From positions 1 through 58,342 of the forward strand of contig JANWZN010000004.1 in NCBI GenBank assembly GCA_025054575.1: DNA of 58,342 bases, in the 5' to 3' direction. Every line of letters begins with the position of its first letter. Position 1 is the first letter of the stretch. Under the pieces are notes generated by a model. The model was not told the DNA's origin and searched no databases. It was given only the letters and a program-made list of their open reading frames with translations. Below, one piece after another: positions 9,709-22,006 of the stretch. The position numbers and the translations under genes are program-made. The DNA comes from Geminicoccaceae bacterium (GTDB taxonomy: Bacteria; Pseudomonadota; Alphaproteobacteria; Geminicoccales; Geminicoccaceae).

Positions 9709-11877
9709 TCACTCGCCGTAGTAGGCAGCGAGAGCGAGTCGGGTCCGGCGGTTGCCCGAGCGAGCCCAGCGCGCCTCTCGGCGCAGATCGACGCGGTTGA
9801 GGACGGCACCGACCAGCTTGCCCTCGAGCTCCGGGGCTCGGGCGAGGGCCTCGGCGACCAGCCCCCGTGCGGTGGCACCCCAACGCACGACCAGGACCGC
9901 GCGATCGACCGCAGCAGCGATCAGCCGCGGATCGGCGACCGCCAAGAGCGGCGGGGCGTCGACCAGCACGAGCTCGAACCGTTCGCGGGCGGCGGCCAGC
10001 AGTCGTCCGAGCCCGGCCGGACCCAACAGGCGGGTCGGCTGCTCCAGCCGGCGGCTGCCGGGCAGCACGACGAGCCCGGTCGGGCGGTCGACCGCGAGCA
10101 CGGTCTCAAGGCTCTGCTCGCCGCGCAGCACTTCGGCGAGCCCGGCCCGCGGTTCCTGGTCGAGCAGCTCGCCCAGCCGCGGCCGCCGCAGATCGGCGTC
10201 GATCAAGAGCGTGCGCACGCCCTCTCTGGCCGCGAGCCGGGCGAGGCACAGCGCGAGCGTGGTCTTGCCCTCGCCCGGCAAGGAGGAGGTGAGCAGCACG
10301 ACCATGCCTCGCCCGCTTGTACCCCGGGCGAGCAGCCCCGTGAGGATGCAGCGGAGGGCTTCTGTGAAGCGAGCGTTCGGTCGCTCCAGGACCAGTGCCT
10401 CGGGCGAGAGGCCTGCGCGGGCAGACAGTTCCGGCAGGGAGGCGAGCGGTACGAGCCGCAGTTCCTCTTCGAGCTGGTCGGTCGTGCGGAAACCCTTCTC
10501 GGCGGCCTCGGCCACGTACACCGCGACCAGCGCCACCACGAGCGAGACGGCCAAGGATATCGAGAGCGCGAGCTTGGGCCGCGGGAAGAGCGGGCTCGGC
10601 GGCGCCACGGCCTCGGAAATGATCCGCGCGTCCGGGCGCTGGGTCGCCTCGCCCTGTGCCACCCGCTCGAGCTGCGCCAGATAGGTGTCGTAGAGGCGGC
10701 GGCCGACCTCCACCTTCTGTTCGAGCGCCTGCAGCTCCTCTGCCGCCCGATCCCGCTCGCTCGAACGCGCGCGCACCCGCTCGATCTCGCGGGCGATCGT
10801 CTGCTCGCGGGCACGGGCGACCTGCAGCGAGGTCTCCTGCTCGCGCAGCAGACGGGCCTGCTCGGCGCCGATCCGCGCCTCGAGCTCGCTGACCTCGCGT
10901 CGGATGTCGAGGAGTCGCGGATGGCGCTCGCCGTACTGCCCCTTGAGTTCGGCCTCGCGGCGCAGGGTTTGCGCCTTGAGCGCATCCAGGTTCTGCAGGA
11001 GCGTGGAGGAACCGAGCTCCTCGCCCGGTGCTGCGAACTCGCCGCGCCGCACGAGCTCCTTGAGCCGGCCGATCCGCGCCTCCTTGGCCGCGCGATCGAT
11101 CGACGCCTGGACCAGCTCCCGTTCGAGCTCGCGCAGCCGTTCGGCTTCGCGGGCCCTGGCGTCGCGGCTGTCCGGGAAGCGGGCACGCAGCGCCTCGAGG
11201 GCAGCGAGATCGGCTTCGTATTGCGTTTTCGCGGCCTCGAGCCGCTCGGCGAGCCAGCCCGCGCTGCGCTGCGCCGCCTCGGCTTTGGAGGCGAGCTGGC
11301 CGAGCAGGTAGTGCTCGGCAACGGCATTGGCGATTCGCGCCGCCTTCTCGGGATCGCCGGCTCGGAAGCGAACGGCGATGACGTAGGTCCGCCCCTCGCG
11401 CGAGACCAACAGCCGCTCCGAGAACCGATCGACGAGGGGTGCGGTGGGGTCCTCCTCCGGGCTTTCGCTGCCGGGCCCGGCATCGGCCGCGGCGGCGCCC
11501 GCGAGCCGGCGGCCGAGCTCCACCAGAAGCGTTCTCGGCGACGGCAGGGGTCGGTGGAATTCGGGATCGTTGGCGAGACCCAGATTGACCACGACCTCGC
11601 GCGCGAGCGACCGCGAGAGCAGGATCTGCACTTGGCTGTCGACCATCGCGCCGTCGAGCGCACCGAGGCCGAGCGCCGAGGGTTCACCGGCCCGGCCTCG
11701 CTCCGGATCGATCAGCAAAAGGGCCCGGGCCTCGTAGATCTTCGGCAACAGGCCGACGACGCTCGTCGTCAGCCCGCAGCCGACGATCACGATCACGGCC
11801 ACCAGCCCCTTGCGCCGCCACAATACGGCCAAGAGGTCGAGAAGCCCGATTTCGCGGCTGGTCGAGGAACGGCTCAC
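9709..11877 (-). CDS. Exopolysaccharide chain-length regulator with BY-kinase domain (ExoP/GumC/Wzc type)
   Basis: This 722-residue inner-membrane protein controls polymerisation and export of a surface polysaccharide. An N-terminal Wzz domain follows a first membrane helix (LVAVIVIVGCGLTTSVVG, about 28-46), then a long coiled coil (about 200-400) and a second helix near 435-455. The cytoplasmic kinase domain has Walker A SLPGEGKTTLALCLAR near 535, Walker A' LLIDADLRRP and Walker B LVLVDAPPLL. The C-terminus has only a YY pair rather than the long tyrosine cluster of Wzc, so autophosphorylation capacity may be limited. GTG 11877 overlaps the stop of the preceding small gene (GTGA), implying coupled translation. 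Confidence 0.9.
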   Translation of the reverse strand: MSRSSTSREIGLLDLLAVLWRRKGLVAVIVIVGCGLTTSVVGLLPKIYEARALLLIDPERGRAGEPSALGLGALDGAMVDSQVQILLSRSLAREVVVNLGLANDPEFHRPLPSPRTLLVELGRRLAGAAAADAGPGSESPEEDPTAPLVDRFSERLLVSREGRTYVIAVRFRAGDPEKAARIANAVAEHYLLGQLASKAEAAQRSAGWLAERLEAAKTQYEADLAALEALRARFPDSRDARAREAERLRELERELVQASIDRAAKEARIGRLKELVRRGEFAAPGEELGSSTLLQNLDALKAQTLRREAELKGQYGERHPRLLDIRREVSELEARIGAEQARLLREQETSLQVARAREQTIAREIERVRARSSERDRAAEELQALEQKVEVGRRLYDTYLAQLERVAQGEATQRPDARIISEAVAPPSPLFPRPKLALSISLAVSLVVALVAVYVAEAAEKGFRTTDQLEEELRLVPLASLPELSARAGLSPEALVLERPNARFTEALRCILTGLLARGTSGRGMVVLLTSSLPGEGKTTLALCLARLAAREGVRTLLIDADLRRPRLGELLDQEPRAGLAEVLRGEQSLETVLAVDRPTGLVVLPGSRRLEQPTRLLGPAGLGRLLAAARERFELVLVDAPPLLAVADPRLIAAAVDRAVLVVRWGATARGLVAEALARAPELEGKLVGAVLNRVDLRREARWARSGNRRTRLALAAYYGE

Positions 11878-14491: not shown

Positions 14492-15919
14492 ATGAGTGTT
14501 GTCGTTCGGTTCGCGCCCTCACCCACGGGCTATTTGCACATCGGCGGGGCGCGGACCGCGCTGTTCAATTGGCTGTTCGCCCGCCACCACCGGGGCAAAT
14601 ATCTGCTGCGGATCGAGGACACCGACCGCGCCCGCTCGACCAAAGAGGCGATCGAGGCGATCCTCGACGGGCTCCACTGGCTGGGGCTCGACCCCGACGA
14701 ACCGCCGATTTTCCAGTCGACCCGGTTCGACCGCCATCGCGAGGTGGCGCTGCGACTGTTGGCCGAGGGCAAGGCCTATCGCTGCTGGGCGACGCCCGAG
14801 GAGCTCGAGGCGATGCGCGAGCGGGCGCGGGCCGAGGGCCGGCCGATGCGCTACGACGGCCGCTGGCGCGACCGCGATCCGGCCGAGGCGCCGCCCGGGG
14901 TTCCGCCCGTGATCCGGCTCAAAGCCCCGCTCGAAGGCGAGACGGTGATCGACGACCTCGTCCAGGGCACGATCCGGGTCGCCAACGAGCAGCTCGACGA
15001 CATGGTCCTGCTGCGCTCGGACGGCACGCCCACCTACATGCTCTCCGTCGTGGTCGACGATATCGACATGGGGATCACCCACGTCATCCGCGGCCACGAC
15101 CATCTGACCAACACTTTCCGCCAGAAGCAGCTCTACGACGCGATCGGCGCGCCTTGCCCGGCCTTCGCCCACATCCCGCTCATCCACGGTCCCGATGGCG
15201 CCAAGCTCTCGAAGCGGCACGGCGCCCTCTCGGTCACCGAATATCGCGAGATGGGATTTCTCCCCGAGGCCATGCGCTGCTACCTGCTGCGGCTCGGCTG
15301 GGCGCACGGTGACAAGGAGCTGTTGAGCGACGAGGAGGCGATCGCACTCTTCGATCTCTCCGGGGTCGGTCGCTCGCCGGCCCGCTTCGACATGGCCAAG
15401 CTCTTGAACGTGAACGCGCATTTCCTGCGGCTGCGGGGCGATGCCGAGCTCGTCGAGCTCCTGCGCCCGTTCCTCGCCAAAGAAGGGCTCGTGGCCGAAG
15501 GGGAGGGGGCTCGACGGCTGCTCGCCGGCATGGCGGGGCTCAAGGCGCGCGCTCGGACCCTGGTCGAGCTCGCCCGTGCCGCCGGCTTCTATCTGCGACC
15601 GCGCCCGTTGCCGATCCGGCCCGAGGCCGCCGCGCGTCTCGATCCGAGGGCGCGCGAGGCGCTCGCGGCCCTGAAGCCGGTCTTGGCCGGCGAGGAGCGC
15701 TGGGAGGAAGCCGCGCTCGAAGCCGCCTGTCGGAACTTCGCCGAGACACACGGGCTCAAGTTCGCCGACCTCGCCCAGGCTTTGCGCGTGGCGCTCACGG
15801 GCTCGACCGTGTCCCCGGGCCTCTTCGAGGTCATGGTCGTGCTCGGGCGCGAGGAGACGCTCGCACGGATCGACGACGCTGCCACGGGTCGCAACCCGGT
15901 CCTCGCGCCTGCGAATTGA
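14492..15919 (+). CDS. gltX: Glutamate--tRNA ligase
   Basis: This enzyme charges tRNA-Glu with glutamate for translation and tetrapyrrole synthesis. The 475-residue class I synthetase has the HIGH motif as [14 protein letters not shown] (about 14-27), the RIEDTDRAR segment, the [18 protein letters not shown] block, and the KMSKS-type loop KLSKRHG near residue 243. The C-terminal anticodon-binding region is complete. The start is the first ATG ([18 protein letters not shown]). No clear Shine-Dalgarno is present. It lies between comEC (divergent) and gltA (same strand). Confidence 0.97.
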
Positions 15920-16007: not shown

Positions 16008-17315
16008 ATGAGCGATCCCACGAGGCCGGCCATCGCGCGGGTTTCGGTTGGTGGCGGTGAGCCGGTCGAACTGCCGATTCTCGCGGGCACGATGGGCCCG
16101 AGCGTGCTCGATGTGCGCAAGCTCTACGCCACCACCGGCCTGTTCACGTACGATCCGGGCTACACGTCGACCGCGAGTTGCGAATCCAAGATCACCTATA
16201 TCGACGGCGACAACGGCATCCTGCTGCACCGCGGCTACCGCATCGAAGACCTGGCGTCCCGCTGCACCTACCTCGAGGTTTGCTACCTTCTTCTCCACGG
16301 CGAGCTGCCGACCCGTGCGCAGCTGCAAGAGTTCGTGCACAACATCACTTACCACACCATGGTGCACGAGCAGATCAGCTACCTGTTCCGTGGCTTCCGC
16401 CGCGACTCCCACCCGATGGCGGTGATGATCGGGGTGGTGGGCGCGCTCTCGGCGTTCTACTACGAGGACCTCGACGTCGACGATCCGAACAAGCGGATGA
16501 TCGTCACGCATCGGCTGATCGCGAAGGTGCCGACGATTGCCGCGATGGCATACAAGTACTCGATCGGCCAGCCTTTCGTCTACCCACGCAACGATCTCGA
16601 TTACTCCTCGAATTTCCTGCACATGATGTTCGCGGTGCCGTGCGAGCCGTACAAGCTCAATCCGGTGATGGCGCGCGCGCTCGACAAGATCTTCATCCTA
16701 CACGCCGATCACGAGCAGAACGCCTCGACCTCGACGGTTCGGCTGGTAGGCTCGACCGGGGCCAGTCCCTATGCCGCGATCGCCGCCGGGATCGCGGCCC
16801 TGTGGGGACCGGCGCACGGTGGTGCCAACGAGGCCGTGCTCGGCATGCTCCGGCAGATCGGCTCGGTCGCGAACATCAAGTCCTTCCTCGAAAAGGTGAA
16901 GGACAAAGATTCGCAGATGCGGCTGATGGGCTTCGGCCATCGCGTCTACAAGAACTACGATCCGCGTGCCGCCGTCCTCAAGAAGAGCGCCGACGAGGTG
17001 CTTGCCGAGCTCGGCAAACGGAACAATCCTCTCTTGGAGATTGCCAAAGAGCTCGAGAAGATCGCGCTCGAGGACGAGTATTTTGTCAAACGCAAGCTAT
17101 TTCCCAACGTGGACTTTTATTCCGGTATCATCCTCGAGGCGATGGGCATTCCGACTCGGATGTTCACTGCGATCTTCGCACTCGCCCGCACCGTGGGCTG
17201 GATCGCCCAGTGGAACGAGATGATCGAGGACCCGCAGCAGAAGATCGGCCGGCCCCGGCAGCTCTATACCGGTCCGGTCGAGCGCCCGTTCGTGCCGATC
17301 GAGGCGCGCGGCTGA
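16008..17315 (+). CDS. gltA: Citrate synthase (type II, hexameric form)
   Basis: Condenses acetyl-CoA and oxaloacetate at the entry to the TCA cycle. The 435-residue protein shows an N-terminal region ending [34 protein letters not shown], the active-site histidines in [12 protein letters not shown] and [15 protein letters not shown], and the final [13 protein letters not shown] block. ATG 16008 has a strong AGGAGGG Shine-Dalgarno 7 bases upstream. In related genomes the lpx genes lie on its far side; here fabZ begins only 45 bases past the gltA stop, tail-to-tail. Confidence 0.97.
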
Positions 17316-17360
17316 GCCGGGCGCGGCCGAACGGGCCTGCTCGCGGATCCCGCGCGCGCT

Positions 17361-17846
17361 TCAGCCCGCGGCGCGCTGCGCCATGACCTTGGCGCTGAAG
17401 CCGCACTCGGTGGCGAGCTCGCCCGCGACCCGGGCGCGGCCCTGATATTTCCAGATGCCGAGCCGCTGGCGGACGAGCTCGACCTCGAGTGCCAGCGTGT
17501 CGCCCGGGCGCACCGGCCGGCGGAAGCGGGCCTCCTCGACGGTGGTGAAGTATACCATGGTGCCCTGGGCGTCCGGGCCGAGGCTCGCGACGGTCAGCAC
17601 CGCTGCGGCCTGCGCCAGCGCCTCGACGATCAAGACGCCGGGCATGATCGGATCGGTCGGGAAGTGCCCGGGGAAGAAGGGCTCGTTGAAGGTCACGTTC
17701 TTGATGCCGACCGCGCGCTTGAAGGCCTCGATCTCGGTCAACCGATCGACCAGCAGCATCGGATAACGGTGCGGGATCGCCCGCATGATGCCGAGATGAT
17801 CGATGTCCGGCAGCCGCGTTCCGACCGCGATGCCTTCGTTGCTCAT
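17361..17846 (-). CDS. fabZ: 3-hydroxyacyl-[ACP] dehydratase
   Basis: Dehydrates 3-hydroxyacyl-ACP in fatty-acid elongation. The 161-residue hot-dog-fold protein has [16 protein letters not shown] near 20-35, the catalytic His in [10 protein letters not shown] and the catalytic Glu in [13 protein letters not shown] prefer ATG 17846, preceded by AGAGGGGGA, over a GTG at 17933 that overlaps the skp stop, because the extra 29 residues would be a low-complexity extension unlike the family. In most alphaproteobacteria lpxD lies upstream and lpxA downstream of fabZ; neither is present here. Confidence 0.95.
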
Positions 17847-17929
17847 GGCACGACGTCCCCCTCTAGCCTCGTTGGGCAGGAAAACCGATCCCCGGGGCGC
17901 GGCGAACGGCCGGCCCGGCTCGGTGCGGC

Positions 17930-18532
17930 TCACTCGCTGGCGGCGATCTCCGGCAGCTTGACGCTCGGCAGCTTGCGGTCGAGCCGAGCCAGGACCTCCT
18001 CGGTGATGTCGATCTTGGGCGAGAACAACAGCACCGCCGAGGCCGGCAGCACGAGATTGAAGCCGCGCGTCTCGGCGAGCTCGTCGACGATCTCCTTCAA
18101 GGCCTGGCGGACCATGTTGTTGGCCGCCGCGAGCGCCTCGTCGAGCTGGCGCCGGCGCTCGTTCGAGACCCGCTGCAGGGCCTGGACGGCCTCCTCGTAC
18201 TCCTTGCGCTTCTGGGCGAAGACCTCGGCCGCCAGCGTGCCGCGCTGGCGGGCGAGCTCCTTGCCGACCTCGTTGAGCCGCTGCTCCTCCTTGGCGAGCT
18301 GCTCGAGATAGAGCTTGCGGCGCACCTCGAGCTGCTGCTGGATGCTCTTGGCCGCCTTCGAGTCTTTCAGGATCCGTTGATGGTCGACGACGGCCGCGAC
18401 CGCGGGCGGCAGCGCCTGCGCCTCGGCGCGCGGCAGCGGCGGGACGAGCGGCAGGGCGGCGAAGGCGATCGCCCCCTCGACCAGCCTCCGGCGGCTCGGC
18501 CCCCGCCGTCTCGCGCGCCGCCTCTGCTCCAA
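17930..18532 (-). CDS. skp: Periplasmic chaperone Skp/OmpH family
   Basis: Holds unfolded outer-membrane proteins in the periplasm for delivery to the Bam complex. The 200-residue product has a basic N-terminus ([13 protein letters not shown]), a hydrophobic export segment ([16 protein letters not shown]), the Skp core opening [20 protein letters not shown], a long charged coiled coil (about 65-150), and the C-terminal [20 protein letters not shown]. The start is TTG 18532; a GAGGAGG Shine-Dalgarno overlaps the bamA stop. It follows bamA as is usual. Confidence 0.9.
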
Positions 18533-18546
18533 CCCGCCCGACCTCC

Positions 18547-20832
18547 TCAGAACCGCGTGCCGAAGGAGATTCGCACGGTCTCCGTCTCGTCCTGGCTGTC
18601 CTTCAAGAAGGCGAAGCCGAAATCGATCGCGAGCGGCCCGAGCGGCGACAACCAGGACAGCCCCACGCCGGCCGAGGCCCGCAGATCGCCGCTGTCGGCG
18701 ATCTGCGGGCTGTCGATGTCGATCTCGGTGAGCGAGCCGGCCTCAAGGAACGTCCGCCCGAAGATCCGCAGCTCCTTCGGCAGACCCAAGGGAAATCGTA
18801 GCTCGGCCGTACCGACGTAGTAGACGTTGCCACCGAGGGCGTCCTCGGTGCGTCGATCGCGCGGACCGATCCCGGCGAAGCGGAAGCCGCGGAAGCTCGT
18901 GCCGCCGAGGAAGAACCGCTCGGTCAAGGTGACGTCCTCGCCGCCGAAGCCGACGATGTGACCGGCCGAGGCGCCGAGATTGAGAACCCAGTCGGGCGCG
19001 AAGCTGTAATACCAGTCGGCTCGGCCCTCGTGGCGCAGATAGCGGCTGTCGCCGCCGAGCCCCGCTACTTCCTGGTCGAGCCGCAAGAGATAGCCTTCGG
19101 AGGGCAGGAAGCGTTGGTCGCGCCGATCGTAGGTCAGGCTGTGGCCGACGGCCGAGGTCCAGCGAGCACCCTGCTCCTGGCGGATGAACGGCGAGGCGTC
19201 GTTGTCGACGTCTTGGATCTGGGTCCGCCTGAGCGAATAGCGCACGGCGTGGCGCAGATTCTCGGTGAGCGCATAAGATCCCCGCAGCGTGCCGCCGGTG
19301 ACGGCTTCGTCGAAGTTCGACTCGGTCTGATAATCCGTTTTGGTGCGGAACAGGTCGAAGCCGGCGGCGAACTCGCGATCCAGGAACCAGGGCTCGGTGA
19401 AGCTGAACTGGGCGTTCTGGCGGCGGCCCGAGATGGTGAGATTGGCGACCACGTCCTGGCCGCGGCCCAAGAGGTTGCGCTCGCGGAAGCGGATGTCGCC
19501 GAGCGGGCCGTCGGCGGTCGAGAACCCGGCGCCGAAGGAGAGCTCGCCGGTCGAGCGCTCGGAGACGCGGACCTTGATCACGATCTTGTCGGGCGCGCTG
19601 CCGGGCTCGGTCCGCACGTCCACGGTCTCGAAGAAGCCGAGGTTGATGAGCCGCTGGCGCGAGCGGCGCAGAAGCGCGGCGTTGTAGGCATCGCCTTCGG
19701 CCAAACGGAACTCGCGGCGGATCACCGAATCGAGCGTCCGGAGGTTGCCTGAGATGTCGATCCGCTCGACATAGACCCGTGGGCCCTCGCTCACCTCGAA
19801 GGTGACGTCGACGGTGAGGGCCTCCCGGTCACGACGCTGAACCGGTTCGATCCGGGTGAACGCGTAACCGAGCGATCCGAGCTGGTCGGTCAGCCTTTGG
19901 ATCGTCGCCTCGATCTCTTCAGCGTTGTAAACCGCACCTTCGCGCGCCACCAGGCTCGCGCGGAGCTGTTCGGGCGCGAGATCGGGAACGGTCGAACGAA
20001 CCTCGATCCTGCCGAACCGGTAGCGCGGCCCCTCGTCGAGGGTGAAGGTGATGTAGAACTCCCTGCCGTCCGGCGTCAGCTCGGCCACAGCCGAGATCAC
20101 CTGGAAATCGGCGTAGCCGCGAGCCAGGTAGAAGCGTCGCAGGAGCTCCTTGTCGACCTCGAGCCGGTCCGGATCGTAGGTGTCGTCGGAGGTGAACAAA
20201 CGCCACCAGGCCGTCTCGACCGTCTGGATGGCGCCGCGCAGGGTCGAATCGGCGAATGCTTCGTTGCCGATGAAGCTGATGCCGCGGACCCTGGTGACCG
20301 GGCCCTCGTCGATCTCGAAGACGAGGTCGACCCGGTTCTGCTCGAGCTCGATGATCTTGGGCTCGACCCGGGCGGAAAAGCGGCCGCTGCGCCGGTAGAG
20401 GTCGAGGATCCGGGTGACCGCCTCCTGGACGCGGGCGCGGGTATAGACCTGGCGCGGGCGCAACGCCACTTCGGCCTCCAGCACCGAATCCTGCAGCGCC
20501 CGGTTGCCCTCGAAGGCGATGCGGTTGACGATCGGGTTCTCGACCACCTCGATCACCAGCCGATCGCCGTCGCGGCGAATGCGGACATCGTCGAACAGCC
20601 CTGTCTGGAAGAGCGCCTTGACCGAGGCATCGAGCGCGGCGGCGCTAAACGGATCGCCGCGGCGGACGGCCAGATAGCTCTCGATCGTCGCCCGCTCGAC
20701 GCGCTGGTTACCGGTGATCGAGATCTCGCGGATCCGCCCGCCGTCCTGGCCAACGACCGGCAGGCTCGGCCCCAAGAGGAGCCCGCTCGCCACGGCGAGC
20801 CCGCTCACGGCACGACGCCAGCTCTCCTGCAT
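18547..20832 (-). CDS. bamA: Outer-membrane protein assembly factor BamA
   Basis: The central beta-barrel of the Bam complex, which inserts proteins into the outer membrane. The 761-residue precursor has a signal peptide (ending about residue 28), five POTRA domains (about 33-420; the first starts [20 protein letters not shown]) and a C-terminal barrel with [20 protein letters not shown] and the closing FGTRF ending in Phe, the usual barrel signal. An ARG-rich barrel loop corresponds to the conserved region near [17 protein letters not shown]. It sits between rseP and skp. Confidence 0.97.
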
Positions 20833-20884: not shown

Positions 20885-22006
20885 TCAGGAGATCAGCCCG
20901 GCGATCAGCTCGACGATTTTGAGGTGCACGAGGTCGTTCCAGGTCGCGAACAGCATCAGGCTCAAAACCATCGCGAGCCCGAACCGGAAGGCGATCTCCT
21001 GACTGCGCTCGGTCAAGGGCCGCCCGCGGGCCGCCTCGACCGCGTAGAGGGCGAGATGGCCGCCATCCAGCATCGGGATCGGGAACAGGTTGATGAGCCC
21101 GAGATTGATCGACAAGACGGCAGTGAACCAGAGCGCCGGCACCACGCCGTCCTTGGCGATCTCGCCCGACATCTGAGCGATCCGCAAAGGCCCGCCGAGC
21201 TCCTGGGTCCCGCGCGCGCCGACGATCATCTCGAACAGGCCCTTCAAGGTCCCGCCGATGATCCGACCGGTCTCGAGCACGGCCTCGACGATCGCCTCGC
21301 CCGGGCCGCTCTTGCGGAACTCGACCCCGGCCCGGCTCACGCCGATGAGCCCGATCCGATGAACGTTGCCGAACCGGTCGGTGAGCTCGCTCAGGCCCGG
21401 GGTGACGGTGAGCACGAGCTCCTGGCCCTGGCGCGCGATCGTGAAGCTCAAGGGAACCCCGGGGCTCGCCCGAACGATCGTCTGCAGCTCCTCGAAGCTG
21501 GCGACCGGACGGCCGTCGACCGCGATCACCCGGTCGCCCGGCTGGAGGCCGGCCGTGGCGGCCGGGCTCTCGGGCTGGACCGCGCCGAGCTCGGGCGGGG
21601 TGAAGGGGCGACCGCTCAGCACGAACAGGATAGCCAGCATCAAGATCGCGAACAGGAAGTTGGCGAGCGGGCCGGCCGCCACGATCGCCGCCCGCCGGCC
21701 GACCGTCTGCGCCGGAAAGCTCGCCGGATCACCGACCGCGGCGACGTCGGGCAGCGTGCTGGTCGCGTCGGCATCGCCCAGCATCTTGACGTAGCCGCCC
21801 AACGGTACGGCCGCGAACTTCCAGCGCGTTCCACGCCGGTCGGTGAAGCCGAACAGCTCGGGGCCGAAACCGATCGAAAAGACCTCGACCCGCACGCCGC
21901 AGGCGCGCGCCACGCGGTAGTGGCCGTACTCGTGGACGAACACCACGATCGACAGGATGATCAAGAAGGGGATGAGATACTGCCCGATCAGGCTCACGAG
22001 ATCCAT
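20885..22006 (-). CDS. rseP: Site-2 zinc metalloprotease RseP
   Basis: Intramembrane protease that cleaves anti-sigma factors and signal-peptide remnants. The 373-residue protein has an N-terminal helix with the zinc site FVHEYGHY (about 24-31), a membrane segment near 95-115, one PDZ domain (about 120-210, with GLQPGDRVIAVDGRPV), the third zinc ligand in MLDGGHL near residue 312, and a final membrane helix. Some homologues have two PDZ domains; only one is clear here. It lies between dxr and bamA. Confidence 0.95.
   Translation of the reverse strand: MDLVSLIGQYLIPFLIILSIVVFVHEYGHYRVARACGVRVEVFSIGFGPELFGFTDRRGTRWKFAAVPLGGYVKMLGDADATSTLPDVAAVGDPASFPAQTVGRRAAIVAAGPLANFLFAILMLAILFVLSGRPFTPPELGAVQPESPAATAGLQPGDRVIAVDGRPVASFEELQTIVRASPGVPLSFTIARQGQELVLTVTPGLSELTDRFGNVHRIGLIGVSRAGVEFRKSGPGEAIVEAVLETGRIIGGTLKGLFEMIVGARGTQELGGPLRIAQMSGEIAKDGVVPALWFTAVLSINLGLINLFPIPMLDGGHLALYAVEAARGRPLTERSQEIAFRFGLAMVLSLMLFATWNDLVHLKIVELIAGLIS

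Follow-up and report, generated by a model that had tools for sequence, protein, structure and literature searches.

The locus between gltX and bamA of this Geminicoccaceae genome raises the question of what has become of its lipid A genes. In the window, that is, the whole analyzed stretch of 58,342 nucleotides, the list of open reading frames gives gltX and gltA on the forward strand, followed by fabZ, skp, bamA, rseP, dxr, and cdsA on the reverse strand. According to the original prediction, alphaproteobacteria commonly carry skp-lpxD-fabZ-lpxA-(lpxI)-lpxB near gltA, lpxD, lpxA, and lpxB are missing here from exactly these slots, and either the genes have moved elsewhere or the lineage makes an outer membrane without classical lipid A. 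The features of the locus are the following.

14492-15919, forward strand: gltX, at the edge of the ancestral envelope cluster (open reading frame; gltX lies at the same place in the same-family genome G007)
16008-17315, forward strand: gltA, citrate synthase (PF00285)
17316-17360, no strand: empty lpxA-lpxI-lpxB slot of 45 bases, filled by lpxA, lpxI, and lpxB in G007
17361-17846, reverse strand: fabZ, retained (PF07977, FabA-like)
17847-17929, no strand: empty lpxD slot of 83 bases; read across the family, the junction is skp-lpxD in lipid A genomes and skp-fabZ in lipid A-less genomes
17930-18532, reverse strand: skp/OmpH chaperone, retained, start codon uncertain (PF03938)
18547-20832, reverse strand: bamA, retained, basis of the family tree (PF01103 and five PF07244, Omp85/POTRA)
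20885-22006, reverse strand: rseP, conserved neighbor (open reading frame; same place in G007 and G022)

Both predicted gaps are exact. The end of fabZ at 17361 lies 45 bases from gltA, and 83 bases separate its start from the end of skp at 17930. Pfam confirms the four central genes, including fabZ, which is needed for fatty acid synthesis too. By citrate synthase, the named relatives recovered are distant (72% at best). In the window, tblastn with LpxD, LpxA, LpxI, and LpxB of the same family as queries detects no relic of the four genes, the best match having an E value of 0.05 and lying outside both slots. The presumed ancestral order is borne out as well: G007 reads bamA-skp-lpxD-fabZ-lpxA-lpxI-lpxB-gltA-gltX, and the arrangement gltA...fabZ-lpxD-(skp)-bamA is found in a Kiloniellaceae MAG, Ferrovibrio, Caenispirillum, Inquilinus, Rhizobium, and others among the named alphaproteobacteria. 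In all genomes of the genus (6/6), fabZ comes immediately after skp and is itself followed by gltA, on contiguous DNA. Since the same slots are closed in all six, the gap is neither due to chance nor to misassembly. Elsewhere in the window (9709-11877, reverse strand), a Wzz/GNVR chain-length determinant is fused to a tyrosine-kinase-type ATPase; from this fusion, the cell may carry a capsule or exopolysaccharide coat.

The genome of the window (G000) comprises 3.55 Mb at 96% completeness and forms, together with five congeners (G001-G005), the six genomes of the genus. Searches of these six, including G005 with its single contig, by family models return no LpxA (over the cut-off), LpxB, LpxC, or KdtA; LpxD is missing as judged by synteny and by the lack of LpxD-level matches. 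The same searches do find lpx genes and KdtA in eight relatives of the same family and in controls, with Caulobacter LpxC as the positive control. A relocation of the lpx genes within the genome, conceivable because such genes are scattered in several alphaproteobacteria and because the window by itself cannot tell, is thus refuted for LpxA, LpxB, LpxC, and KdtA and is highly improbable as a whole. Of the two outcomes that had been proposed, relocation falls, and an outer membrane without lipid A is upheld at the level of genes.

The same genes were sought in a family set of 31 genomes, mostly MAGs. LpxA, LpxB, and KdtA are present together in eight (G007, G009, G010, G013, G014, G022, G023, and G040) and are not found in 23/31. 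LpxC occurs in seven of the eight, G040 lying outside the LpxC search, and LpxD-level matches beside lpxA are confined to these eight. Genomes lacking lipid A genes are mostly 3-5 Mb in size. Assembly or binning gaps could mimic such a pattern in sets consisting mostly of MAGs, and gaps do occur, as three genomes outside the family (G053, G064, and G068) have no LpxC match yet carry LPS-type LptF1G1. However, every congener has the closed slots on uninterrupted DNA, G005 consists of a single contig at 99%, completeness is rated 100% for G017 and G006, and the unlinked loci lpxDAIB, lpxC, kdtA, and lptF1G1 are lost jointly, which makes gaps a very poor explanation. As deduced from gene content, the lineage would make no lipid A.

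Serine palmitoyltransferase (SPT), the sphingolipid gene that the original prediction had singled out, is present. With the enzyme of Sphingomonas paucimobilis (verified as 2jg2) as query, G000 encodes an SPT of 51% identity over query residues 20-411. Orthologues with approximately 48-57% identity are found in 23/23 lipid A-less genomes of the family, the copies of G003 and G046 being in fragments. Among the eight lipid A genomes, only G009 and G010 (2/8) have SPT; G009, one of these two dual-lipid genomes, is rated 7% contaminated. The association of SPT with lipid A loss yields a Fisher p of 3.8e-5 in the family and of 1.2e-4 among 50 named genomes, both values ignoring kinship. In the SPT tree, G008 and G009 fall into a group of their own, separate from that of all other copies; hence, SPT may have been acquired twice in the family.

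The surroundings of SPT are best seen in G005, whose SPT scores 602 bits over NCBIfam NF047599 (cut-off 500). The cluster reads aasR-cerR-acpR-spt / cl11-cpgB-lptG2-lptF2-metallophosphoesterase-cpgD-cerS candidate-fatty acid hydroxylase. By family, aasR encodes an acyl-AMP/ACP ligase, cerR an epimerase-like reductase, acpR an acyl carrier protein, and cpgB a DAGK_cat kinase; the cl11 product of 300 aa matches no Pfam family, cpgD encodes a MobA-like nucleotidyltransferase (NTP_transf_3), and the CerS candidate is GNAT-like. CpgB (DAGK_cat) and CpgD (NTP_transf_3) are assigned by family, their substrate specificity being putative, and the candidate CerS is a conserved 380-aa cluster protein named by synteny and a sub-threshold GNAT match. 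The G000 contig covers the stretch between the metallophosphoesterase gene and aasR, both included; the cpgD/cerS side, seen in G005, would fall beyond the contig start. This cluster matches the ceramide cluster CC_1168-CC_1152 of Caulobacter (PMC11324152), in which the kinase is a ceramide kinase and the nucleotidyltransferase CpgD makes CDP-glycerate (PMC12275187). Such a Caulobacter-type ceramide-phosphoglycerate cluster surrounds SPT in the lipid A-less genomes sampled. Caulobacter crescentus likewise groups aasR, cerR, acpR, spt, the ceramide kinase, the CpgD-like cytidylyltransferase, and lptF2/lptG2 within a single region. In contrast, C. crescentus also makes LPS and has LpxC, whereas the lipid A genes and LptF1G1 are gone here.

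The Lpt export machine is retained but altered in its permease. LptD is encoded in 31/31 family genomes, with or without lipid A (the G020 copy is split over two contigs). The lptF1G1 pair is located between pepA and lptD in three lipid A genomes (G022, G007, and G009); it is missing at this junction, with pepA followed by lptD, in nine lipid A-less genomes (G005, G006, G008, G017, G018, G011, G012, G016, and G021). The LptFG pair of lipid A-less genomes instead adjoins the sphingolipid genes wherever the neighborhood was read, and the PF03739 pair within the spt cluster falls in the F2/G2 clades of an LptF/LptG tree. This tree of 103 proteins has four groups, with SH-aLRT supports of 100 each for F1 and G1, 98 for F2 (90 once the highly divergent copy of PHREA1 is included), and 85 for G2, the PHREA1 copy included. 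Herein, F1/G1 occur only in lipid A genomes and F2/G2 together with SPT; most dual genomes have both pairs, and lipid A-less genomes have F2 and G2 only.

We therefore favor, with a probability of roughly 0.8, the reading that lipid A has given way to an anionic sphingolipid, which has also taken over the Lpt bridge. The envelope cluster would have been stripped of lpxD and lpxA-lpxI-lpxB, with further losses at other loci removing lpxC, kdtA, and lptF1-lptG1, which encode the LPS-type permease. The outer leaflet would probably be made of a ceramide-based anionic lipid; its chemical nature, its placement, and its passage through LptD are predicted from the genes. For its synthesis, SPT would join serine and an acyl thioester by way of the acyl-ACP synthetase and the dedicated acyl carrier protein. 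The epimerase-like reductase and the GNAT-like N-acyltransferase (candidate CerS) would yield ceramide, and the DAGK-type ceramide kinase and the CpgD-like cytidylyltransferase would aid in providing phosphoglycerate-type head groups. LptF2-LptG2, encoded in the same cluster, would extract the ceramide-based lipid, and the retained Lpt bridge would deliver it to LptD. In favor of this step, lptF2G2 of Caulobacter lies beside spt and has been proposed for sphingolipid transport (PMC11324152).

A different division of labor is unlikely but deserves to be weighed: lipid A is gone, but LptD and LptF2G2 carry another glycolipid, or LptD is kept for some other reason, and the sphingolipid takes another route. 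In its favor, the export route of sphingolipids has been described as unknown (PMC11324152). This reading also draws on G010, which has intact-looking lpxA, lpxB, lpxC, and lpxD together with kdtA and SPT, lacks lptF1G1 at the pepA-lptD junction, and in which only F2/G2 pieces were found (L353, L354, and L359). F2G2 may thus not be strictly specific for sphingolipids, or F1G1 of G010 may lie in an unassembled stretch. However, LptF2G2 is located within the ceramide cluster and tracks SPT, not lipid A, inside and outside the family, and in the genome G029, which lacks LpxC, LptD and LptFG are gone too, meaning that retention of LptD is not automatic.

The gene pattern behind the proposed replacement of lipid A by a sphingolipid, with takeover of the Lpt bridge, recurs in other lineages, and the LptFG copy counts there agree with it. 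Sphingobium, Sphingopyxis, Sphingomicrobium, and a deep-sea MAG have no LpxC and possess SPT, one F2G2 pair, and one LptD. The first three represent the LPS-free glycosphingolipid envelope of the Sphingomonas type; the present case differs in concerning another family, with several losses within it, intermediates extant, and phosphoglycerate-like head-group genes. Four LptFG copies are present in the dual-lipid Niveispirillum, Roseomonas, and PHREA1, and two in six LPS-only genomes. In Kordiimonas gwangyangensis (L059) and the deep-sea alphaproteobacterial MAG (L032), gltA, fabZ, and bamA lie close together without lpxD between fabZ and bamA, and both genomes have SPT and no LpxC over the cut-off. 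K. gwangyangensis shares with the present lipid A-less lineage this closed locus and lptF2G2 beside spt, but belongs to a distant lineage and has, next to its F2G2 pair, one divergent extra LptFG homologue. This third, very divergent LptF-like gene (L336, in the Kordiimonas genome G075) lies away from the spt cluster. Anaplasmataceae including Wolbachia are alphaproteobacteria without Kdo2-lipid A genes (PMC3087551). Unlike the mostly 3-5 Mb genomes described here, which have LptD and SPT, they are obligate intracellular; the joint loss of Lpt export and lipid A of the Anaplasmataceae type is not seen in the family, where LptD and LptF2G2 are retained. In a Reyranella MAG of 6.8 Mb (G082, L072), SPT is present and LpxC, LptD, and LptFG have no match, which reflects either a bin gap or a genuine absence of the complete export system.

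Within the family, the BamA tree requires at least four changes for the lipid A-less state, several of its deep forks being weak. LpxA of the eight lipid A genomes forms one clade (85/96), which favors repeated loss over regain. Horizontal reacquisition of lipid A in these eight is disfavored by this clade and by the native slots that the genes occupy where the cluster was read, and vertical descent is preferred. Four genomes without LpxA, LpxB, and KdtA carry an orphan lpxC directly after ftsZ, its native place: G011 (L210), G012 (L211), G016 (L212), and G021 (L213). All four frames are still open. In E. coli numbering, the LpxC of G012 has lost H79, H238, and D242, that of G016 D242 and D246, and that of G011 H265 and D246, whereas G021 has kept all of them; H79, H238, D242, D246, and H265 are active-site residues of LpxC. 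The decay of active-site residues in orphan lpxC genes suggests that lipid A was abandoned repeatedly and in steps. The lipid A genes of G010 without lptF1G1 suggest, in turn, that a lineage can shed its LPS gate before it gives up lipid A synthesis. A wider model is somewhat better than an even bet: the Lpt machine would have been reassigned repeatedly from LPS to sphingolipid, with LptF2-LptG2 as a sphingolipid-selective gate to a shared LptD; dual lineages could first lose lptF1G1 and then lpxD and lpxA-I-B, leaving lpxC to decay at the end, a course taken several times in one family.

LPS-free sphingolipid bacteria such as Sphingomonas are already known, and LptF2G2 has been proposed as the sphingolipid transporter of Caulobacter. 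New is the lipid A-less lineage, together with the rule on the Lpt parts, by which F1G1 goes with lipid A and F2G2 with SPT; a literature search of incomplete coverage found no paper on the lipid A-less state of the lineage or on this rule. Lipid A-only, sphingolipid-only, and dual genomes coexist in the family, which hence lends itself as a natural test case to asking which lipid each Lpt part follows and in what order lipid A is given up. The prediction is that the choice of lipid would be set by LptF2G2, and that both lipids would be accepted by LptD.
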